From a virus: a stretch of 28,261 nucleotides of DNA. Shown one piece after another: positions 2,680 to 23,618 of the stretch (position 1 is the first letter of the stretch; each line of letters opens with the position of its first letter). A program made the position numbers and the translations under genes. The stretch is taken from the IMG/VR virus record IMGVR_UViG_3300049483_000179, positions 1 to 28,261 of that record. One strand, given 5' to 3'. Below the pieces are notes generated by a model. That model saw only the letters and a program-made list of their open reading frames with translations. It was not told where the DNA came from and did no database searches.

Positions 2680-4187
2680 AGCTGATCCCGGCGTTCCTCT
2701 CCAAGCTGTTCGGGGCCCCGGCTAGACGGCGTAACGCTGGGTTTCCGGCGGCGCAGATCAGTCGCCTCACCAACTCCTGGACCACGGACCCGAGCAGCAT
2801 CAACAAGTGGCTGCGGCATGACCTGCGCACGCTGCGGGCGCGCTCCCGGCAGCTCGCCCGCGCGGACGGCTATGCAAGCAAGTTCCTGCACTCCTGCGTG
2901 GCGAACATCGCCGGCGCAAATCCGTTCGCGCTGCAGGCGAAGATCACCCGTCCCCGAGGTAGCCTGGACACCGCCGCCAATCGGCAGGTCGAAGCCCTGT
3001 GGGCGCGATGGGCGCGCAAGGGCAATTGCGATGTCAGCGGCACCCTGAGCCTGGCCGAGATCCACCGCATGCTGGCGCGCAGCCTGGCACGCGACGGGGA
3101 GGCGCTGGTGCGCCTGGTCAAGGGCCGCGGCGACTCCGTTGGTCTGCGCCTCCAGGTGCTGGACGTGGACCGCCTGGACGAGGAAAAGAACGAGTTTTCC
3201 GCCAACGGAACGGCGATCAAGATGGGCGTCGAAGTCGATAGCCTGGGCCAGCCGCTCGCCTATCACATCCTGAAGACCGTTCCGGGAGAGATCGGCTACT
3301 GGGGGCAGTCGGGAGTGAAGGAATACAGCCGCGTCCCGGCCGACGAGATCCTGCACCTGTTCATCCCGCAGTACCCGGAGCAAGTGCGCGGCATGCCGTG
3401 GATGCACTCGGCATTGCTGCGACTACATCAGCTCTCCGGATTCGAGGAAGCCGCGGTCGTAGCTGCCCGCGTCGGAGCCTCGAAGATGGGTTTTTACACC
3501 TCTCCCGACGGCATGCCAGCCTCGGGCGTGGTGGACGGTACCGATGCGAAGGGCCGCTTTCTGCAGGACGCCGAGCCGGGCGCGTTCGACGTGCTGCCGG
3601 AAGGCTACAAGCTGGAGACCTTCAACCCGCAATTCCCGGACGCTGCCGTGGAGCCGTTCATCCGCGCCAGCCTGCGCGGTATCGCCGCTGCGGTCGGGGT
3701 GGCGTACCACTCGCTGGCGAACGATCCGAGCAACGTCAATTACAGCACCGCCCGCGTTGCACTCCTCGAAGAGCGGGACATGTGGTCCGCGGTGCAGCAG
3801 TGGTACACCGAGGCCTTCTGCGCGCCGCTGTTCGATGCCTGGAAGACCGCCGCGGTAAGCGGGGGGCAGCTCGGCCCGGAATGGCTCACCCAGGAGCGCT
3901 TCGAGTCGATCCGCTGGCAGTGCAAAACCTGGGATTGGGTCGACCCGCTGAAGGACATCCAGGCCGAGATCGAGGCGCTCAACAACGGGCTCACCAGCCG
4001 CACCCGCATCGCCGCCAAGGGTGGCGAGGACATCGAGGAAATCCTCGACGAGCTCGCGGCCGAGCAGGATCTGATTTCCGAGAAGGGCCTGCAGTTCGGC
4101 GAAAAACCAGCATCGCCGACGCCGGAACCGCCCAAACCAGACAAAGAGGACACCGAGAATGACCGATCGCTCCGCGCAGTCGCGTAA
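2676..4187 (+). CDS. Phage portal protein, lambda gpB family
   Basis: 503 residues, the usual size for the lambda-type portal. The protein forms the dodecameric ring at one capsid vertex through which DNA enters and to which the tail attaches. Family-like segments: the N-terminal arginine-rich stretch with LRARSRQLARADGYASKFL, the core ARSLARDGEALVRLVKGR around 130-150, the RGMPWMHSALLRLHQL segment near 240 and the C-terminal QCKTWDWVDPLKDIQAEIEAL near 410-430, which is typical of this family. It overlaps the upstream gene by ATGA and the downstream protease-capsid gene by 29 bases. The C-terminus is a P/E-rich tail. Confidence 0.95.
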   Translation: MKLIPAFLSKLFGAPARRRNAGFPAAQISRLTNSWTTDPSSINKWLRHDLRTLRARSRQLARADGYASKFLHSCVANIAGANPFALQAKITRPRGSLDTAANRQVEALWARWARKGNCDVSGTLSLAEIHRMLARSLARDGEALVRLVKGRGDSVGLRLQVLDVDRLDEEKNEFSANGTAIKMGVEVDSLGQPLAYHILKTVPGEIGYWGQSGVKEYSRVPADEILHLFIPQYPEQVRGMPWMHSALLRLHQLSGFEEAAVVAARVGASKMGFYTSPDGMPASGVVDGTDAKGRFLQDAEPGAFDVLPEGYKLETFNPQFPDAAVEPFIRASLRGIAAAVGVAYHSLANDPSNVNYSTARVALLEERDMWSAVQQWYTEAFCAPLFDAWKTAAVSGGQLGPEWLTQERFESIRWQCKTWDWVDPLKDIQAEIEALNNGLTSRTRIAAKGGEDIEEILDELAAEQDLISEKGLQFGEKPASPTPEPPKPDKEDTENDRSLRAVA

Positions 4188-6243
4188 GGCCGAGATCCCC
4201 ATTCAGGGCCGCCTGGCGTCCCTGAACAGTGTCGACGTCAAGGCGCGCACGGCGGATCTGGTGTGGAGCACCGGCGCCGCTGTGGAGCGCATGGACTGGT
4301 GGACGGGCGAGCGCTACATCGAGGAACTCTCCCTCGATCCGAAGCATGTGGATATGACGCGGCTGGCTTCCGGTGCGCCGCTGCTCAACACCCACAACCG
4401 CTATGACCTGAACGACGTGATCGGCGTGGTCGAGAGCGCGGCCCTGCTCAAATCCGAAGCCCGCGCCACCGTGCGTTTCAGCGCCCGCGCCGATGTCGAT
4501 CCGATCTTCAAGGACGTGCAGGACGGCATCCTGCGCAATGTCAGCGTCGGCTACGTGGTGCGCAAGTACGAGATCACGCGCAAGAAAGGCGAAATCGACC
4601 GCTGGCGCGCTGTGGACTGGCAACCCATGGAGCTGTCCCTGGTGCCGATCGGCGCCGATCCCCATGCCGGGGTGCGCAGCGAATCCGGATCAACCGCTAC
4701 ACAACGCACGTTCCCGTGCGAATTCATCACCGCGAGCACTGCGGGAGTTTCACGAAAGGAGCAGAGGATGGACCAGGAAAACACCGGCGGAAGCTCCGCC
4801 ACCGAGGCTCCGCAGCCCACCGCGGTGCGTGACTATCTGGCAAACGAAAACGCGATCCGCGATCAGACCCGGCGCGAGATGGCGAAGCGCAACCAGGACA
4901 TCCGCGCGCTGGGCAAGAAGTTCGCCCGCTACGGCGGAACGGACCTGGCGGAGCGCGCCATCGACGACCCGAACATGACGTTCGACTCGTTCCGCGAGCA
5001 GGTGCTCTCGCTCGCCGAGCAGCGCCAGACGCAAGCCGACGCCATCAGCCAGGTGCCCGCAGACCCCGCCAGCATCGGCGCGCCGCAGTCGCGCATGCCC
5101 TACGGCATGAGCCCGCGCGAGATGGTCCATGGCAGCAACCTGCAGGCCTTCCGCGGCATCGGCAAGCTGTTCAAGAAGGACGACGTCGAGATCGCCTACC
5201 GCGCCGGCATGTGGGCGCGCGCGGTGATCTTCGGCGACCCCCACGCGCACCGCTGGTGCCGTGATGCTGGCGTCCAAGTGGTGCAGGGTGGCATGGAACT
5301 GATCGGCAGCCAGCAGCGCACCATGACCGAGTCCATCTTCACCTCCGCCGGCTGGCTGGTGCCGGTCGAGATGGAATCCGCGATCATCGCCAACCGCGAG
5401 CAGTACGGCGTGGCGCGGCGCATCTGCAACGTGATCCCAATGGGCAGCGCGACCCTGACGATCCCGCGCGTGACCTCCGACATTACCGCGTATTTCGTGG
5501 GAGAGGGCACCAGCGGGACCGCCTCGGATTCCGCCGGCGACCAGGTGCAGTTGAACCTGAAGGACCTGATGGCCTACACCAAGATCGGCAAATCGACCGC
5601 GATGGACGCGGTCGTCCCGCTCGCCGAGATGGTCGCGCGCGAACAGGCGCGCGCCTTCGCCATCAAGGAAGATGCCTGCCTGATCCTGGGCGACGGCACC
5701 TCGGCCTATGGCGGCATGCAGGGTATCGTGACCCTGCTCGAAACAGCCGCCTATGCCGGAGGCCGGGCCGCTGCCGCCACCAACCACGACACGTTCCCAG
5801 AGGTCGATGCGTCGGACGTGGCATCCCTGATCGGCAAGCTGCCGGTCTATGCCCGGGCCGGTGCGCGCTTCGTCGCTTCCGGCGTGGCCGAGGCCCTGGT
5901 GTTCGGCCGCCTCAAGCTCACCGCCGGCGGCCAGGACACGCAGAGCCTGCAGGGCGGCGTGCTCGAGCAGTCGTATGCCGGATTCCCGGTTTCCGTGGCG
6001 CACAACATGCCCGCAGGCGCGGCGACCGACTACTCCACCAAGGTGATGATGCTCCTGGGGAACTTCCAGCTTGGCGTGGCCTTCGGTTCCGGCTCCGGCA
6101 TGATGCTGACAGTCGATCCCTACACGCTGGCGGACCAGAACCTCACCCGGGTGATAACGACCGAGCGCATCGACATCGTGTCGCATGGCGTGAACAAGTC
6201 CACGACCGTGGCCGGTCCGATCGTCGCGCTGTACGGCGACTGA
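4159..6243 (+). CDS. Prohead protease / HK97-type major capsid protein fusion
   Basis: 694 residues in one uninterrupted frame. Residues 1-185 are an HK97-type prohead protease (peptidase S78-like): His79 in LLNTHNRYDL and Ser129 in LRNVSVGYVV are the likely catalytic pair, and ELSLVPIGADP (159-169) is the family C-terminal signature. Residues 204-310 are polar, helical and scaffold-like (delta-domain type), and about 385-694 are the HK97-fold capsid protein (SAGWLVPVEMES, YGVARRICNVIPMGS, AIKEDACLILGDG). In most related phages protease and capsid are separate genes, although such fusions are known. A strong internal start exists at 4768 (separate entry), so a 491-residue capsid precursor may also be made. 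Confidence 0.93.
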   Translation: MTDRSAQSRKAEIPIQGRLASLNSVDVKARTADLVWSTGAAVERMDWWTGERYIEELSLDPKHVDMTRLASGAPLLNTHNRYDLNDVIGVVESAALLKSEARATVRFSARADVDPIFKDVQDGILRNVSVGYVVRKYEITRKKGEIDRWRAVDWQPMELSLVPIGADPHAGVRSESGSTATQRTFPCEFITASTAGVSRKEQRMDQENTGGSSATEAPQPTAVRDYLANENAIRDQTRREMAKRNQDIRALGKKFARYGGTDLAERAIDDPNMTFDSFREQVLSLAEQRQTQADAISQVPADPASIGAPQSRMPYGMSPREMVHGSNLQAFRGIGKLFKKDDVEIAYRAGMWARAVIFGDPHAHRWCRDAGVQVVQGGMELIGSQQRTMTESIFTSAGWLVPVEMESAIIANREQYGVARRICNVIPMGSATLTIPRVTSDITAYFVGEGTSGTASDSAGDQVQLNLKDLMAYTKIGKSTAMDAVVPLAEMVAREQARAFAIKEDACLILGDGTSAYGGMQGIVTLLETAAYAGGRAAAATNHDTFPEVDASDVASLIGKLPVYARAGARFVASGVAEALVFGRLKLTAGGQDTQSLQGGVLEQSYAGFPVSVAHNMPAGAATDYSTKVMMLLGNFQLGVAFGSGSGMMLTVDPYTLADQNLTRVITTERIDIVSHGVNKSTTVAGPIVALYGD
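4754..4770 (+). promoter_or_regulatory. Internal ribosome binding site and start for capsid domain
   Basis: GAAAGGAG at 4754-4761 lies six bases before an in-frame ATG at 4768, exactly at the junction between the protease and the scaffold/capsid domains (Met204, then DQENTGGSS). Spacing and strength are better than those of most starts in this operon. It would give a separate capsid precursor of 491 residues in addition to the 694-residue fusion. Use of this site is inferred. Confidence 0.6.
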
Positions 6244-6281: not shown

Positions 6282-6698
6282 ATGCAACTCGACCGTGCAG
6301 TCTCGAAGCTGCTCCTGAGCGGCTCCACGCAATCCGATCAAAGCCATACGGCTGTGATCGACACCCTGGGTTATGACAGCGTGCAGATCGGCCTCGCCGA
6401 GTCCACCGTGGCAGCGACCAACGGATTCATCACGCTGAAAATCGGCGAGGGCGACACGACGAGCGCCTTTACCGACGTCGCCACCGCGCTGCATTCGGCC
6501 GCGCAGGCCGCGACGAATACCAGCGTGGCGAACTCCTACAACATCAACGTCGATACGCGTAACCGCAAGCGCTATCTGCTGCTGACGGCGACGCCATTCA
6601 CCACCAAGACGCTGACCTCCTGGGTCACGCTCGGCAATGCGGAGATCGGCCCGCAGTCGGCCGACAACTCCGGCGTGCGCGCGATCTCCAGTTTCTGA
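6282..6698 (+). CDS. Small head protein, possible capsid decoration protein
   Basis: 138 residues with a good ribosome binding site (GAAAGGA before the ATG). Predicted beta-rich with no signal peptide: LGYDSVQIGLAE, NGFITLKIGEGD, NRKRYLLLTATPF, LTSWVTLGNAEIGP. Small beta proteins immediately downstream of the capsid gene often decorate or stabilise the capsid; that role is inferred from position. The C-terminus overlaps the following start by one base (TGATG). Confidence 0.8.
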   Translation: MQLDRAVSKLLLSGSTQSDQSHTAVIDTLGYDSVQIGLAESTVAATNGFITLKIGEGDTTSAFTDVATALHSAAQAATNTSVANSYNINVDTRNRKRYLLLTATPFTTKTLTSWVTLGNAEIGPQSADNSGVRAISSF

Positions 6699-7888
6699 TG
6701 AAGCGCGACGACGTCGTAGCCTACTTTACACCGGACCTCCTGCGCCTGAACCTGGGCGCGGGCGGTGCCTCGCTGGAAGGCTACGACAACACCTACGACC
6801 TGAAGCACGGCAAGACGGCCTACCCGCTGGACTTGCCGGACGCCTGCGCCGACGAGATCCGTGCCTCTCACATCTTCGAGCACTTCTCGCACCGCCAGGC
6901 GGCGCAGGTGCTGGCGGATTGGGTGCGCGTGCTCAAGCCGGGCGGTCTGCTCAAGCTCGCCGTGCCGGACTTCGAGTACATCTGCCGCGGCTACCTGGCC
7001 GGACGTGCCGAACCGTGGGTCGGCTATACCTGCGGCGGTCATGTGGACGCCAACGACGTGCACCTGGCGCAATACGACCATGCCAGCCTTGGGCAGATCA
7101 TGCGCGAGGCCGGTATTGTCGGCGTCCACAAGTGGCAAGGAGAGGGCGACTGCTCGGCGCTGCCGGTGTCGCTCAACCTGGCAGGATGGAAGCGTCCGGC
7201 GGCGTGGCCTAAGACCGTGGCGGTGATGTCCGTGCCGCGCCTGGGCTTCATGGACAATTTCTTCAGCTCCGTCGACATGATCGCCCGCCTGCGCATCCCG
7301 CTGCGCAAGGTGACGGGCGCCTTCTGGGGACAGTGCCTCACGCGCTCCATCGAAGATGCCATCGCCGACGGTGCCGAGTGGGTGCTGACGATGGACTACG
7401 ACAGCGTGTTCGCCTCGGACACGGTCGAGTCGCTGCTCGCCACCGCCATGGCCCATTCCGAAGCGGACGCCGTGGTCCCGCTGCAGATGGGCCGCCGCTC
7501 GCAGCACCCGCTGTTGACCATCGTCGGCGAAGACGGGCAGAACCTTGGCGCGATCGACCGCGCCGTCATGGACCGGACTCTGGTTCCCATCAAGACGGGG
7601 CACTTTGGACTGACGCTGCTGCGCACGGCGCGCTTCGCCAGCCTGCCCAAGCCCTGGTTCGTCGGCGTCCCCGATGAGGAAGGGCGTTGGGGCGCGGGCC
7701 GCATTGACGACGATATTCACTTCTGGCGCAACTGGCGCGCGGCGGGGTTCAACGTCCACTGTGCGCCGCGCTGCGTCATCGGCCACGCCGAGCTGCAAGT
7801 CATCTGGCCTTCCCAGAACCTGGAACCGCTCTATCAGTACGCAAGCGAATTCTGGGAAGAGGGCGAGCCGCGGGGGACCTGGCAGTGA
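6698..7888 (+). CDS. Methyltransferase-glycosyltransferase fusion protein
   Basis: 396 residues, two enzyme-like domains. Residues 1-165: class I SAM-dependent methyltransferase, with the SAM-binding LNLGAG at 17-22, HIFEHF at 58-63 and WVRVLKPGGLLKLAVPDF at 75-92. Residues 172-385: GT-A-type glycosyltransferase-like, with a DYD metal/nucleotide-sugar motif at 233-235 in AEWVLTMDYDSVF, GHFGLTLLRT at 301-310, an acidic IDDDIHFW at 337-343 and a candidate metal-binding His363 (IGHAE). It lies between the decoration-like gene and the head-tail joining genes, with one-base and GTGA overlaps, so it is made with virion proteins. Substrate unknown; virion protein or host surface glycan modification are both possible. 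Confidence 0.85.
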   Translation: MKRDDVVAYFTPDLLRLNLGAGGASLEGYDNTYDLKHGKTAYPLDLPDACADEIRASHIFEHFSHRQAAQVLADWVRVLKPGGLLKLAVPDFEYICRGYLAGRAEPWVGYTCGGHVDANDVHLAQYDHASLGQIMREAGIVGVHKWQGEGDCSALPVSLNLAGWKRPAAWPKTVAVMSVPRLGFMDNFFSSVDMIARLRIPLRKVTGAFWGQCLTRSIEDAIADGAEWVLTMDYDSVFASDTVESLLATAMAHSEADAVVPLQMGRRSQHPLLTIVGEDGQNLGAIDRAVMDRTLVPIKTGHFGLTLLRTARFASLPKPWFVGVPDEEGRWGAGRIDDDIHFWRNWRAAGFNVHCAPRCVIGHAELQVIWPSQNLEPLYQYASEFWEEGEPRGTWQ

Positions 7889-8079
7889 GCGGACCCCTGC
7901 CCAAGTACCGCGTTGTCGTCGCCTTCGACCGCCATCGCGTCGACGACGTGATCGAGCCGACCGGGCTGATGCGCGATCGCTTGCTGCGCCTCGGGTTCGT
8001 CGCGCTGGTGGAACCGGAGCAGCCCGTCCGCGCTTTCGTTCCGCAGCGCATCACGCGCAGGGGCGTGCCCCATGCTTGA
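7885..8079 (+). CDS. Small hypothetical protein in head-tail region
   Basis: 64 residues, GTG start overlapping the previous stop (GTGA). Contains KYRVVVAFDRHRVDDVIEPTGLMRDRLLRLGFV and a basic C-terminus, no membrane segment or signal peptide. The stop overlaps the next start by eight bases. Unrecognised; position suggests a connector or accessory head-completion role. Confidence 0.7.
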   Translation: MSGPLPKYRVVVAFDRHRVDDVIEPTGLMRDRLLRLGFVALVEPEQPVRAFVPQRITRRGVPHA

Positions 8080-8365
8080 CGCCGCCACCCTCGCCGCCGA
8101 TGCCGCGACTGCCATCGAGGAACTGGCATCGCATAGGGCGGTAATCAACGGCGCCGCGCGAATCCCGGTGATCTTCGATGCGCGCTATGTCCATGCGCTG
8201 GACGTGGGTACGGTCGGACCGGCGATCCGCGTCGCAGCATCCGATTGGCCGGACCCGGCGCAGGGTGACGTAGTCGATATCGACGGGATCAACGCGCGCT
8301 ACACGGTGGCCAATCCGGAGACGGACGGCACCGGAACGATTCTCATCCGCCTGCATAAACAGTGA
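8072..8365 (+). CDS. Head-tail joining protein, lambda FII-like
   Basis: 97 residues. An N-terminal helix with A/E-rich sequence is followed by a compact beta domain: RIPVIFDARY, VGTVGPAIRVAASDWPDPAQGDVVDIDGINARYTV and a final strand GTILIRLHKQ. The pattern of a short strand, a xxRxxxSDxPxxxxGDxxxIxGxxYxV segment and a closing strand is that of the FII/head-tail joining family, which binds the connector and receives the tail. It sits after the head genes and before the tail genes, as expected. Confidence 0.82.
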   Translation: MLDAATLAADAATAIEELASHRAVINGAARIPVIFDARYVHALDVGTVGPAIRVAASDWPDPAQGDVVDIDGINARYTVANPETDGTGTILIRLHKQ

Positions 8366-8382
8366 AATGATCGGAGCATAAC

Positions 8383-8973
8383 ATGCTTGTCGACGCCCGA
8401 GTAAACGCAATGCTGGACACGGAGATCGCCGGCACGACGAAGATGTCGCTGCATACGGCCTACTCCGCGACCGGAACCAACGAGGTAACGGGCGGCAGCT
8501 ACGCCAAGCAGACGCCGACCTGGAACGCCGCCTCGGCGCGGTCGAAGTCCATCTCGGCCAACGTCTCGTTTTCTGTTCCTTCCGGAACATCGGTGCGCTG
8601 GGTAGGGCTGTGGGCGACCGACGGCACAACGTTCAAGGGCATGTTCCCGAACGGCGGAACCGAGTTCCCGTTCCAGATCGATTTGACCAACAACCGCGTC
8701 TATTCCGAGGCGCATGGCCTGGCGAACGACAACAAGGTCGTCTTCACCGGAACCACACTCCCGACGGGAGTGACGGCCGGAACGGAATACTGGGTCGTGG
8801 GCGTAACCGCCGCGGACCCGGATTACTTTCAGGTGTCCTCGACTCAGGGCGGCGGAGCCATCGACCTGACGGGCAGCTACCCGTCGCAGGATGCCCGCGG
8901 CGCGAAGCTGGTGACGGAGACCTTCGGCGCCGATGGCACCTTTCAGGTTACATCCTTCTCAGTTGGGTTCTGA
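8383..8973 (+). CDS. Virion structural protein, fibre-like
   Basis: 196 residues with a GGAG site seven bases before the ATG. Residues 20-90 hold a motif seen in many phage structural/fibre proteins: MSLHTAYSATGTNEVTGGSYAKQ, then a beta-rich RSKSISANVSFSVPSGTSVRWVGLW. Residues 105-170 hold a second small beta module, VYSEAHGLANDNKVVFTG through TEYWVVGVTAADPDYFQVSS, also common in phage tail and fibre proteins. No catalytic residues seen. First gene of the unusual block between the connector and the tail terminator. Confidence 0.78.
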   Translation: MLVDARVNAMLDTEIAGTTKMSLHTAYSATGTNEVTGGSYAKQTPTWNAASARSKSISANVSFSVPSGTSVRWVGLWATDGTTFKGMFPNGGTEFPFQIDLTNNRVYSEAHGLANDNKVVFTGTTLPTGVTAGTEYWVVGVTAADPDYFQVSSTQGGGAIDLTGSYPSQDARGAKLVTETFGADGTFQVTSFSVGF

Positions 8974-18754: not shown

Positions 18755-21625
18755 ATGACCACCTGGTGGTTCGACCTCGACGCCGGCGCTGACGCCAACC
18801 CAGGCACCGAAGAGTCCCCGAAGAAAAATCCGAACTCGGTCACGTTCTCCGCCTATGACGTAGTCAAGCTACGCCGCGGCACGTTCAACACCGCGCCGTC
18901 CGGAACCTCCGCCATCGATCTGAGCGCAGGCGGAATCGTGGTCGAGGCGTATGGCCTGGGCGCCGTGCCGAAAATTCTCGGATCGCAAGTCTCGCGCGGG
19001 ATCACCGTCAACAACGTCGCCGGCTGCAGCATCAAGGATCTGTGGATCGACGACGTCTCGGGTCTCTCGGCAACGCGCTACGGCGTGGTCGTGACGACGG
19101 CCGGATCGAGCGAGACGGTTTCCTCCGACACGACGCTCGAGCGTGTCAAGGTGACCAACGTCCTGACCAACGCCGTCACCGGCTGCAACGGAATCATGAT
19201 GTGGGGCGACGGCAACACCGTACTCGAATGCGAGGTCGATACGGTTGGCACGGACTGCTTCTGGTTCAAGTGCCGCAACTTGACCGCCGGCCGGAACATC
19301 GCGCGCAATCCTGCCCAGGACGATGATGTCGTTACCCCAGGCGGAGATTGCTACCAGTTCTCCGGCACCGGATTCGACTACACGAATCTGCACTTTTTCG
19401 ACAACTTCGGCGACCACAGCAACACGGACAACACCAAAAACTGTTTCATCACCATCGGCGTTATTGGCACGGGCATCATCATCGAGGGAAACACGTTCCT
19501 GGCCAACAACGCAGCCGGACAGGTCAACGTGTATATCGACCTGCCCGCAGGATCGATCGTTCGCAACAATCGGATCATCGGCGGGGATTACGGCCTCTAC
19601 CTCGTGAACGCGGGTGGAAACATCGTCTACGGCAACCGGGTCGAGAACGCCAACTACGGCATCCGCCTGGCCTCCTCTGCCCGCGGGCAGAAGGTGTGGC
19701 ACAATGTCATCAAGTCCTGCGGCACCGGCTTCTATGGATCTGCTGACGATGCCACGACGGAACTGAAAAACACCGTCCTGAAGGACAACACCACCGGCCT
19801 GCTCCGCCATATCCACATGGTGGAGGACAACAACGACTTTTTCGGAAACGGCACCGACGCGACCTACACCGGCGGCGCCGGTTCGCTCGGCGCCCATTCC
19901 ATCACCGCCGACCCGCTGCTCGATGACGCCGACTATCCGGCCCAGAATTCGCCGCTCATGGGCGCCGGGGTCGATGTCGGCATCACCGCCGGCGCCGACG
20001 GCTATCCGTTCTCCTCGCCGCCGCCCGTCGGCGCCTACCAGTGGCATGCCGCCGTGGGGGCCGCCACCCAGTCCGCCGCCAACATCGTGCTGCGCGGGGA
20101 ACCGCTCTACCTGGTGGAGATGACGGCCGCGGTGGATGCCGCCGGCAACACCACCGTGCTACGTGCCACGACCGCACGCAATTACGCGACCGAGCCGGAC
20201 GACTCGCCGGCAAACACGCCCTACCTCACGCGCGTCAAGACCGCCGGCCTGCTGCGTCGCGACATCGCCGCTCCGGGCCGCATCGCCGGGGCGAATCAAG
20301 TCGGCTACGGTCTGGTCGACCTTGTCAATCCGGACGGCGGGCTGGACGCCTGGGTGGACTACGGTTTCGACGGGCGCGACATCACAATTCGCTACGGCCG
20401 CGAGGGCGACCGCTACCGCGATTTTCTGACGATCCTGCGCGGAACGATGGACCAGCCGCAGGCCTCGGTCGTGGCGTTTCAGCTGCGCGTGCGCGACCGC
20501 CTGGGCGAGCTGGACAAGCCGTTGCTCACGACGAAATACGCCGGAACCAACAGCCTTCCCGACGGGCTGGAAGGCGTCGAGGACATCGAAGGCCGCGTCA
20601 AGCCCCGGCTGTACGGCAGCGCACTGAACTTCACCCCGGCGCTGGTCAACACCTCGCGCCTGATCTATCAAATCTCCGACGCGGCCATCGCCTCGGCAAC
20701 GGTCTATGACCAGGGTGTCACGCTCACGGCCGGCGCTATCTACACCAGCCAGTCCGACATGGAGACCAACGCGCCTACCGCAGGGCAGGTGCGCGTGTGG
20801 CCGGCAGGCGGCTATTTCCGCCTGGGGTCCAGCCCGGCCGGGCAGATCACCTGCGACGCGAGCCAGGGCGCCGCCGTAGCGAACCGCACGCCGGCCCAGT
20901 TGTCGAGTCAGATCGCGCAGGCCGCGGGGATCGCCGCCGCCGACATCAGCAGCGCCGACGTCTCCGCACTGGATACCGCTGCGGGCTACGAATGCGGGCT
21001 GTGGCTCCAGGAAGAGAGCAGCGCAATGGATGCGATCAGCGCGCTCATGCAGTCGATCGGCGCGTGGTTCGGATTCGACCGGCTGGGCGTCCTGCGCATG
21101 GGGCGCCTGACCGCGCCCGGGACGGCGGTTTTCACATTGCAACCCTACCAAATCATCACCCTCGACCGCCGCGCTTCCGACGACGGGGGCGCCGGCCTGC
21201 CGGCGTGGCAAGTAACGCTCAACTACGCACGCAACTACACCGTGCAGCGCGATGCCGACCTGGCCGGATCGGTCTCCGCGACCCGCCGCCAGTTCGTCCG
21301 TGAGGCGGTGCGCAGCGTCTCCGCAGCGGACACCGCGATCAAAAACAAGCACCGCCTGGCCGCGGACGAGAAATTCGAGACCGAGCTGGTTTCGCGCACC
21401 AACGCCGCGGCCGAGGCCGCGCGCCGCCTGGCGCTCATCAAGGTGGAGCGGGCCATGTACGTGGTACGTGCCCGCGTGAGCGAATCGCTGATTACCGCCG
21501 CGGACCTGGGCGTGAGCTGCGCCGTGAATGTGAGCCGCTTCGCCCTCGCATCCAAAACCCTGCGCATCGTCGGCCTGCAGCACGACTCGCTGCGCGGTTC
21601 GATCAGCCTGACTCTGTGGGGATGA
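18755..21625 (+). CDS. Beta-helix / baseplate hub fusion protein
   Basis: 956 residues. Residues 1-432 look like a right-handed parallel beta-helix: opening WWFDLDAGADANPGTEESPKKN, repeated short strands ending in N or G (GNTVLECEVDTVG, GIIIEGNTFLANNA, GSIVRNNRIIGGDYGLYLVN, GNIVYGNRVENANYGIRL) and closing ITADPLLDDADYPAQNSPLMGAGVD...VGAYQW, a typical end of such domains. Residues 444-956 are a separate phage baseplate/tip domain: LYLVEMTAAVDAAGNTTVLRATTARNY, GYGLVDLVNPDGGLDAWVDYGFDGR, GTMDQPQASVVAFQLRVRDRLGELDKPL. The tip domain follows the tape measure as expected; the N-terminal beta-helix is an added module, possibly a polysaccharide-binding or -cleaving spike. Confidence 0.85.
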   Translation: MTTWWFDLDAGADANPGTEESPKKNPNSVTFSAYDVVKLRRGTFNTAPSGTSAIDLSAGGIVVEAYGLGAVPKILGSQVSRGITVNNVAGCSIKDLWIDDVSGLSATRYGVVVTTAGSSETVSSDTTLERVKVTNVLTNAVTGCNGIMMWGDGNTVLECEVDTVGTDCFWFKCRNLTAGRNIARNPAQDDDVVTPGGDCYQFSGTGFDYTNLHFFDNFGDHSNTDNTKNCFITIGVIGTGIIIEGNTFLANNAAGQVNVYIDLPAGSIVRNNRIIGGDYGLYLVNAGGNIVYGNRVENANYGIRLASSARGQKVWHNVIKSCGTGFYGSADDATTELKNTVLKDNTTGLLRHIHMVEDNNDFFGNGTDATYTGGAGSLGAHSITADPLLDDADYPAQNSPLMGAGVDVGITAGADGYPFSSPPPVGAYQWHAAVGAATQSAANIVLRGEPLYLVEMTAAVDAAGNTTVLRATTARNYATEPDDSPANTPYLTRVKTAGLLRRDIAAPGRIAGANQVGYGLVDLVNPDGGLDAWVDYGFDGRDITIRYGREGDRYRDFLTILRGTMDQPQASVVAFQLRVRDRLGELDKPLLTTKYAGTNSLPDGLEGVEDIEGRVKPRLYGSALNFTPALVNTSRLIYQISDAAIASATVYDQGVTLTAGAIYTSQSDMETNAPTAGQVRVWPAGGYFRLGSSPAGQITCDASQGAAVANRTPAQLSSQIAQAAGIAAADISSADVSALDTAAGYECGLWLQEESSAMDAISALMQSIGAWFGFDRLGVLRMGRLTAPGTAVFTLQPYQIITLDRRASDDGGAGLPAWQVTLNYARNYTVQRDADLAGSVSATRRQFVREAVRSVSAADTAIKNKHRLAADEKFETELVSRTNAAAEAARRLALIKVERAMYVVRARVSESLITAADLGVSCAVNVSRFALASKTLRIVGLQHDSLRGSISLTLWG

Positions 21626-21626
21626 C

Positions 21627-22487
21627 ATGAGTTCGTGCCTCTTCGCGTTTCCCAACCTGGCCGATGCGGCCGCTGTGTCCGGCGGCGACTGGAACGCTGC
21701 CATGCCGCTCGCCAACGTGTTGGACCCGGTGATCGGAAACCGCGCCCGGACCATCAACGACGCTCTCGCTAGCACCCAGTTCGACATCGACCTGGGCACC
21801 AACCGCGGCGTGCGCGTCGTGGCGCTGGCCGGACACAACTTCTCCAGCGCTGCCGTCTTCCGCATCCGCGCCAGCACCGTGGCTGGAGATTTCTCCGCCC
21901 CGCTACACGATTCCGGATGGACCGGAGTGTGGGCTGGGACGTACCTGTCTGGATCGGTGCCGTGGGAGTCCCCGCTGTTCTGGACCGCCGTGCAGACCAT
22001 GACCGGCCTGGACGGCGGACAGCCGACCTTGATTCATTTGCTGGCCGAGGAGACCGGCGCCCGCTATTGGCGCATCGAAATCAACGATCAGTCCAATTCC
22101 GATGGCTACGTTGAGATCGGCCGCCTCTTCCTCGGCAGTGCGTTCCAGCCGGCCGCGAATTTCAATTGGGGCGAATCCATCGGATACGCCGACGATTCGA
22201 CCATCGATACCGCGTGGAGCGGCGCGGAGTACTACGACCGGCGCACCGTGCGCCGTGTGGCGACGCTCCAATTCGACTGGCTGACGGATGCCGAGGCCCT
22301 GGAGCGCGTGCTGGACATGCAGCGCCTGCAGGGCGTGACGCGCGAGATCCTGTTCGTCTGGGACCCGGGCGATACCGTCTATTTCTCGCGCCGTTCGTTC
22401 CTCGCACGCGCCGAGACGCTTTCGCCGATCGAAAATGTTCGCCTGAACACCCACGGCACAGCCATCCGGCTGCGCGAATTGATCTAG
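21627..22487 (+). CDS. Baseplate / tail tip protein
   Basis: 286 residues, beginning one base after the preceding stop. Beta-sandwich (discoidin/galactose-binding-like) core: TQFDIDLGTNRGVRVVALAGHNFSSAAVFRIRAS, GARYWRIEINDQSNSDGYVEIGRLFLGS. C-terminal part: RRVATLQFDWLTDAEALERVLDMQRLQG, EILFVWDPGDTVYFSRRSFLAR, typical of small baseplate proteins in siphoviruses. Its place between the hub fusion and the fibre suggests it anchors the fibre. Confidence 0.82.
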   Translation: MSSCLFAFPNLADAAAVSGGDWNAAMPLANVLDPVIGNRARTINDALASTQFDIDLGTNRGVRVVALAGHNFSSAAVFRIRASTVAGDFSAPLHDSGWTGVWAGTYLSGSVPWESPLFWTAVQTMTGLDGGQPTLIHLLAEETGARYWRIEINDQSNSDGYVEIGRLFLGSAFQPAANFNWGESIGYADDSTIDTAWSGAEYYDRRTVRRVATLQFDWLTDAEALERVLDMQRLQGVTREILFVWDPGDTVYFSRRSFLARAETLSPIENVRLNTHGTAIRLRELI

Positions 22488-22496
22488 GAGCATTGC

Positions 22497-23618
22497 ATGA
22501 GCAGCGTGACATTCCCGGTTGATCTGGGTGGGGACGGCAACACCTACACCGACGATTCCGATCCCTCCACGGGGCTGGCCAACGGCGGCCATCAGACCCG
22601 TTTCGTCCCCTGTCTCGCCGGTGCCGTGGCGATGGCCGAATCCGCGGCGGACTCGGCAAACAAATCGTATCGGCGCAACGTGCTGAACAATTCGTCGTTC
22701 GAGGTCTGGAACGACGCCACCGGCGCGACGAGCTGCACCGCTGCAGCGAAAACCGCCGCCGCGGAGTGTTGGTATGTGCAGCCGACCGGCGCCGCCGTCA
22801 CGCGGGCGCGCAGCGCCACGGTGCGCACCGGAGCGATGGCCCGCTACTCTATCGAGCTGGTAGGCGCAAGCAGCGTAACCAATGTCCTGCTAGGCCAGCG
22901 CCTCGAAGCGGCCGACATCCCAAAGCTGGCGCGCGAAGTCACGTTCCAGGCCTACGTGTACAACGGTTCCGGAGCTGCGTTTCAGCCCTCCCTGCTGATC
23001 GGCACACCAGCCGCGACGAACGATTTTACGACCGTCACAAATCGCCTCACGCAGACGCTGCAAAGCTGCGCCAACGCGGCATGGACGCTCGTGTCGCACA
23101 CCGTAGATATCTCGGCCTACACGAATCTTGCCAACGGCCTTCAGGTCGAATTGCAGATCCCGAGCGGCAGCCTGGTGTCCGGCGACACCGTGCGTGTCAT
23201 GGAGCCGATGCTGTGCCCTGGCGCGGTCACGAGCACTTTCGATTTCGAACCGGTCTCCGAGACCGAGGCGCGTTGCGAACGCTTTTTCGAGAAGAGTTTT
23301 TTGAAAGGGACGGCGCCGGCGCAGAACGTCGGAGTCGACACGGGCGAGTTTCGATTTGTCGCCATTACCGCAGGCGCGACCGTGCAGCGCGGATTTTTCT
23401 ACTTTCGCACTCGGAAATTCGTGGCGCCCACGGTAACAGGATACAACCCGGCCGCCGCAAATGCGCAGGTGCGGGACGCCAGTGCAAACGTCGACTGTTC
23501 CAGTACCTCTGTCGTAGCTACCGAGGTCGGATTCAAAATTGGAACGACTGGAAACGCCTCAACCGCCATCGGCAACGCCCTGGCTCTCCACTGGACTGCG
23601 AACGCGAGGCTATTCTGA
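22497..23618 (+). CDS. Tail fibre protein
   Basis: 373 residues with TAGGAG before the ATG. N-terminal attachment region FPVDLGGDGNTYTDDSDPSTGLANGGHQTRFVPCLAG is common in tail-fibre proteins of related phages. Residues 61-250 form a carbohydrate-binding-like beta-sandwich (NVLNNSSFEVWNDATG, RYSIELVGASSVTNV, EVTFQAYVYNGSG, WTLVSHTVDISAY, LQVELQIPSGSLVSGDTVRVMEPMLCPG). Residues about 255-373 start with ARCERFFEKSF, the common opening of a C-terminal receptor-binding knob. Expected to recognise the host surface. Overlaps the next start by one base. Confidence 0.88.
   Translation: MSSVTFPVDLGGDGNTYTDDSDPSTGLANGGHQTRFVPCLAGAVAMAESAADSANKSYRRNVLNNSSFEVWNDATGATSCTAAAKTAAAECWYVQPTGAAVTRARSATVRTGAMARYSIELVGASSVTNVLLGQRLEAADIPKLAREVTFQAYVYNGSGAAFQPSLLIGTPAATNDFTTVTNRLTQTLQSCANAAWTLVSHTVDISAYTNLANGLQVELQIPSGSLVSGDTVRVMEPMLCPGAVTSTFDFEPVSETEARCERFFEKSFLKGTAPAQNVGVDTGEFRFVAITAGATVQRGFFYFRTRKFVAPTVTGYNPAAANAQVRDASANVDCSSTSVVATEVGFKIGTTGNASTAIGNALALHWTANARLF

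Follow-up and report, generated by a model that had tools for sequence, protein, structure and literature searches.

In the head module of the viral DNA analysed here, a complete IMG/VR record of 28,261 bases (the window), a single gene joins a predicted SAM-dependent methyltransferase (MT) to a predicted glycosyltransferase (GT). The encoded enzyme, MT-GT, fairly likely glycosylates a protein of the virion surface, with the decoration-like protein or the capsid as the likeliest substrate, and methylates the glycan; the virus shell is probably coated by it with methyl-capped sugars. The gene order in the window is terminase, head-tail joining, portal, protease-capsid fusion, decoration-like protein, MT-GT, a small open reading frame (ORF), attachment protein and then tail genes, within which the following features concern the enzyme and its surroundings.

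4159..6243, + strand: major capsid protein (MCP) with N-terminal protease region, 694 aa, the alternative acceptor (Pfam Phage_capsid, 2.9e-30; phrog_4523, major head and protease protein, 2.1e-75)
6282..6698, + strand: decoration-like protein, 138 aa, beta-sandwich, 26% Ser+Thr, the proposed acceptor (phrog_5707, unknown function; AF2 model pLDDT 78.7, eight strands)
6698..7888, + strand: MT-GT fusion gene, ORF of 396 aa (AF2 model pLDDT 93.2, pTM 0.87)
6737..7192, + strand: class I SAM-dependent MT domain, residues ~14-165 (Pfam Methyltransf_11, phrog_6636, Foldseek)
7214..7870, + strand: GT-A, GT2-like glycosyltransferase domain, residues ~173-391 (Pfam of relatives, Foldseek)
7885..8079, + strand: 64-aa ORF overlapping the MT-GT stop codon (ORF call)
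8072..8365, + strand: head-tail attachment protein, end of the head module (Pfam Phage_attach, 4.7e-13; phrog_82, head closure Hc1)

The first-pass annotation had described a two-domain MT and GT enzyme with LNLGAG and DYD motifs, lying between a decoration-like gene and the head-tail joining gene and coupled to both by stop/start overlaps. The ORF is as described, with LNLGAG at residues 17-22 and DYD at residues 233-235, and the overlaps are real on each side. Upstream, where the decoration-like gene adjoins, its TGA (6696-6698) shares one base with the MT-GT ATG (6698-6700); downstream, a GTG at 7885-7887 overlaps the MT-GT stop codon (7886-7888). This GTG, however, starts the 64-aa ORF, which is the actual downstream partner, and the gene taken for the joining gene lies one gene further on, where the Phage_attach gene overlaps the 64-aa ORF and not MT-GT. 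The one-base upstream overlap is not kept in relatives, in which the usual gap is ~3-140 bp, while the gene order is kept. Similar small ORFs occur downstream of the GT in many relatives according to an iterated profile, which may have drifted. A chance or artefactual ORF was considered for MT-GT and is ruled out by family-wide conservation (84 complete MT-GT fusions) together with the AF2 model.

The MT domain, whose limits are approximate and were taken from alignment, contains motif I (LNLGAG, residues 17-22), ASHIFEH (56-62) and VPD (89-91). The protein matches Methyltransf_11 over the Pfam gathering score (4.2e-5) and the methyltransferase family phrog_6636 (2.7e-6), Methyltransf_23 is matched by 60 of 79 aligned relatives (best 5.8e-9), and Foldseek against the PDB returns the class I MTs 1vlm, 3e23 and CysG for this half. 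With its Rossmann-like fold and glycine-rich motif I, the MT half belongs to the Methyltransf_11/23/25 clan, and SAM binding and methyl transfer are predicted from sequence and model. Among the 84 complete fusions, conservation is 100% at G20, 96% at G22, 99% at both E61 and H62, and 100% at P90.

The GT half carries DYD (residues 233-235), IDDDIHFW (336-343) and GH (362-363). Taken alone, the GT half of the window's protein has no Pfam match over threshold, and among the 79 aligned relatives Glyco_trans_2_3 is found in 36 (best 1.3e-7) and Glycos_transf_2 in 23. Structural comparison with the PDB by Foldseek aligns this half with STIV A197 (target-normalised TM-score 0.61), B4GALNT1 and polypeptide GalNAc-transferases; the fold matches of both halves, with polypeptide GalNAc-transferases among them, count in favour of the proposed virion-glycan role. 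The half has a GT-A fold of GT2-like type with a DxD motif, and sugar transfer from a nucleotide donor is predicted. In the 84 complete fusions D233 and D235 are conserved at 99%, D339 at 99% and H363 at 98-100%, and the two aspartates of the DxD metal motif are kept at 99-100% in members with or without an MT. Because the catalytic positions of both halves are 98-100% conserved in the full fusions, neither active site is decaying in them. The earlier impression that both motif sets are intact is borne out by this conservation, the Pfam scans of relatives and the fold matches, and the proposed structure prediction gave a model in which a class I MT and a GT-A fold are each recovered.

The tie to virion genes is stronger than had been claimed, as the block of MCP, decoration-like gene and (MT-)GT is kept across highly diverged phages. 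The earlier reading, sugar addition combined with methylation on a virion protein or a surface glycan, is supported in part. An MCP is present in 102 of the 103 relatives with at least 2.5 kb upstream of the GT, and MCP and decoration-like gene together in 99; with at least 0.7 kb upstream, the decoration-like gene precedes the GT in 122 of 128. In the reverse search, starting from the decoration-like protein, an MT/GT gene lies downstream in 65 of 73 classified loci, mostly within ~100-300 bp, while connector genes come directly next in the remaining eight; the forward and reverse searches have some contigs in common and both include near-identical contigs, so that the samples behind these counts are not independent. 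The MCP has a median pairwise identity of 32%, the decoration-like protein 28% and the GT 40%. Divergence of the GT tracks that of the decoration-like protein (Spearman 0.70) more than that of the MCP (0.40), the pairwise identities not being independent points. Tail modules downstream of the GT differ between relatives and, given the diversity of the MCPs, the pairing of decoration-like protein and GT outlasts deep divergence. As side observations on the capsid genes, the product of 4159-6243 is a protease-capsid fusion with a sub-threshold Peptidase_S78 match, and one relative (L117) has a second HK97-type major capsid gene at 4333-5397 (NCBIfam major_cap_HK97, 4.5e-38) between its decoration-like gene and MT-GT.

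The same neighbourhood bears on whether the GT modifies a tail or fibre protein and not a capsid-surface protein. Mycobacteriophages have both tail tube and capsid glycosylated (PMC12619734), and the window holds a fibre-like gene at 22497-23618 (phrog_4492), but what is conserved beside the enzyme gene is the MCP and the decoration-like gene rather than any tail gene, and the variable downstream tail modules also make a tail acceptor distinctly improbable.

Because of this linkage, the decoration-like protein is favoured as the acceptor. It is small, beta-rich and encoded directly after the MCP, as decoration proteins are, and it has the highest Ser+Thr content of 13 proteins counted in the window. 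The decoration role is inferred from its size, fold and position, and capsid binding is putative; the protein has no sequence relative in the PDB, its fold matches there are generic beta-sandwiches, and in BFVD they are uncharacterised phage proteins. A clade of phages that keep the decoration-like gene but lack a GT altogether (46 loci, reduced to 13 when redundancy is removed) indicates that the decoration-like protein does not need the enzyme. Between the two sets, the strand after KRYL (~6573-6620; in the window KRYLLLTATPFTTKT) often reads [S/T]P.TTQ in GT-linked copies and ATAGDGSAG in GT-less copies. This loop was considered as evidence for the acceptor and set aside as a lead, since in a tree of 94 non-redundant decoration-like proteins the GT-less set forms one clade, which amounts to 1-3 independent comparisons and confounds the difference with ancestry. 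A separate observation is a 553-aa protein in L005 (3061-4722): its N-terminal domain is decoration-like, a long extension is attached to it, and its gene lies next to another decoration-like gene of the ordinary kind and to a GT whose MT has decayed.

In the proposed mechanism, MT-GT would be soluble and located in the cytoplasm, would be expressed along with the head genes and would have two activities, both directed at a glycan. Its C-terminal GT-A domain, with metal bound at the DxD motif, would take sugar from a nucleotide donor and attach it either directly to a protein of the virion surface or to an initial sugar that this protein already bears, the Ser/Thr-rich decoration-like protein next door being the likeliest acceptor and the major capsid protein the second. 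The N-terminal MT would then O-methylate the added sugar using SAM, capping or masking the glycan. The benefit could be altered adsorption, particle stability, or protection from binding by host or environmental factors.

The family comprises at least 472 relatives in IMG/VR, found by protein and profile scans of viral contigs; a search of viral contigs with the MT alone gave no matches. It is nearly absent from isolated phages, where the matches are weak and confined to the MT, and in FoX2, S-LBS1 and MQ-4, isolated phages whose MCP is related, the packaging-portal-MCP backbone is shared but no GT is annotated after the MCP. Genome contigs yielded three GT-only copies on contigs of planctomycete metagenome-assembled genomes (MAGs) and one MT-only match, the clearest relatives among prokaryote genomes being the GT-only copies in two Planctomycetota MAGs.

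Architectures range from the complete MT-GT to a GT alone (255-256 aa), with intermediates in which the GT is joined to an MT that lacks motif I (L005, L006, L007, L010, L012, L027 and others). In L006, L007, L010 and L027 the second half of the MT is still in frame with the GT, as if a structural role remained. Other loci have the GT fused to a different MT (Methyltransf_9; L185), the MT joined to another MT while the GT is encoded separately (L202, L205), or a 640-aa protein with MT, FkbM-like and GT parts (L120, 804-2723); in L120 a second MT-GT gene (3660-4877) also lies 1 kb downstream of the large fusion. In a tree built from 115 GT domains, at least five changes in full-fusion status are required on well-supported branches, although MT-loss counts are slightly overestimated, since among the rows labelled as having none L007 has a decayed MT below threshold and L043 is truncated by the contig end. 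The window's protein belongs to a well-supported group whose six members are all full fusions. The GT is the constant part of the family, while the MT has been swapped, split, decayed or lost, and its loss or decay in several lineages indicates that methylation is not essential.

In an alternative reading, the MT would methylate the virion protein itself (at lysine, glutamate or a terminus) and the GT would act independently, with fusion only ensuring co-expression. In its favour, some lineages retain the GT without the MT, and the MT has no assigned substrate. Its partner MTs in the family, however, are of small-molecule or sugar kinds (FkbM-like, Methyltransf_9), and its cellular homologues form part of large proteins in which GT1, GT4 or GT2 domains are also present, and methylation of protein has accordingly a very low probability next to methylation of the added sugar.

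Further evidence comes from genes inserted between the decoration-like gene and the GT, with more than 150 bp of inserted sequence at some 26 loci. By Pfam these include GDP-mannose 4,6-dehydratases (L092, L106, L107, L110, L114), sulfotransferases (L096, L126, L129, L168), cytidylyltransferase-like proteins (L096, L126, L179) and an MT (L121), with FkbM-like MTs in L083 and L146 falling just short of the Pfam cut-off; a second GT is present in L142. The inserted genes are predicted to encode glycan-building and glycan-capping activities, and from the GDP-mannose 4,6-dehydratases of relatives a GDP-deoxyhexose would be the predicted donor. The sulfotransferases and the sugar dehydratase are better explained by glycan tailoring than by modification of the phage DNA to hypermodified bases, which is extremely unlikely as the role of the enzyme: phage GTs that glycosylate DNA are known (cited in PMC12619734), but MT-GT is placed beside capsid genes in a late head module, and the part of the window that was annotated shows no recognisable gene for base synthesis.

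The GDP-mannose dehydratases and sulfotransferases could also serve host-surface glycans. The enzyme might then merely sit in a late operon and modify an O-antigen, capsule or lipid-linked intermediate of the host, for example to block superinfection or change serotype. Cell-surface polysaccharide loci commonly hold sets of GT, MT and GDP-mannose dehydratase, serotype-converting phage GTs are established, and the cellular MT homologues occur in GT-containing multidomain proteins. Serotype-conversion genes, on the other hand, usually lie near the attachment site of temperate phages, whereas the gene described here is tied to MCP and decoration-like genes of the late head module in nearly every relative, in whichever direction the search is run, and neither a membrane anchor nor a flippase or lipid-carrier partner was observed beside MT-GT. 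A host glycan is for these reasons a rather unlikely target.

Extending the virion-glycosylation reading to the whole family, the block may represent a widespread capsid-glycan cassette of mostly uncultured phages, in which one conserved GT adds sugar to the decoration-like protein and fast-exchanged partners (fused or separate MTs of at least three kinds, a sulfotransferase, GDP-mannose 4,6-dehydratase and a nucleotidylyltransferase) vary the glycan chemistry between phages, diversifying their surfaces. This broader proposal is tentative, its likelihood falling somewhat short of even. Virion glycosylation is known in a handful of mycobacteriophages; the family points to enzymatic coating of the head as a common trait of uncultured phages of freshwater and soil and of those associated with planctomycetes, and to methylation, sulfation and the synthesis of deoxy-sugars as components of the process. 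In addition, the pair of decoration-like and enzyme genes, together with the natural series that runs from a full MT through a decayed one to loss of the MT and to absence of the GT, can be used for testing the function of virion glycans.

The closest architectural parallel is the chlorovirus PBCV-1 system of A064R, a GT-GT-methyltransferase, and A061L. A064R is likewise a viral case of a DxD GT-A domain and a SAM methyltransferase fused in one protein. It builds the capsid-protein glycan's terminal rhamnose and 2-O-methylates it (PMC9614988), thus acting on the glycan of the virus's own major capsid protein, and a counterpart role is what we infer for the phage MT-GT. The two differ in that A064R has three domains with the MT at the C-terminus, the reverse of the phage order with its N-terminal MT, and in that it belongs to a eukaryotic algal virus, acts on N-glycans with a UDP-rhamnose donor and is not encoded beside a capsid gene as in the phages here. 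The likeness is one of architecture, GT-A and MT in one polypeptide, which by itself does not imply a shared family; the A064R-D1 structure was not among the matches of the family profile to PDB sequences.

Among phages, Corndog encodes an O-methyltransferase and GTs between portal and protease (gp35-gp38), which have been proposed to modify the capsid (PMC4351075), and virion proteins of Che8, Corndog and Myrna are reported as glycosylated (PMC12363180). The Corndog set and Che8 gp108-gp110 resemble the present system as phage GTs located in the head module or acting for it, accompanied in Corndog by an O-methyltransferase, but they are separate, unfused genes, and the Che8 set lies near the genome end (PMC4351075; PMC12363180). 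The family profile showed no significant similarity to Che8 gp108, gp109 or gp110 by hhalign, a weak test in which each target was a single sequence.

Bacterial polysaccharide-assembly proteins with TPR, GT and MT domains (L312, L314, L316, L317) have a homologous MT (up to 1.3e-30 over the MT part) joined to GTs. They differ in being chromosomal, 500-2700 aa long and equipped with GT1/GT4- or GT2-type partners, and the phage GT domain was not found in them. STIV A197 (PDB 2c0n), a GT-A protein of an archaeal virus, is the best GT-A match by target-normalised TM-score and of similar size, but has 11% identity, no MT domain and another virus lineage. Virus-encoded virion glycosylation is already known, while the fused architecture, the linkage to a decoration-like gene and the modular partners appear undescribed, a literature search having found no description of a phage MT-GT fusion.

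Scans of the window for tRNA genes and Rfam families gave no match. Elsewhere in the window, the ORF after the attachment gene (8383-8973) matches the head family phrog_240 at its N-terminus, and its residues 102-166 match the tail-fibre families phrog_9370 and phrog_7765. Further downstream, two ORFs strongly match families of unknown function: 18755-21625 (956 aa) matches phrog_8917 (4e-105), and 21627-22487 (286 aa) matches phrog_8610 (9e-51).
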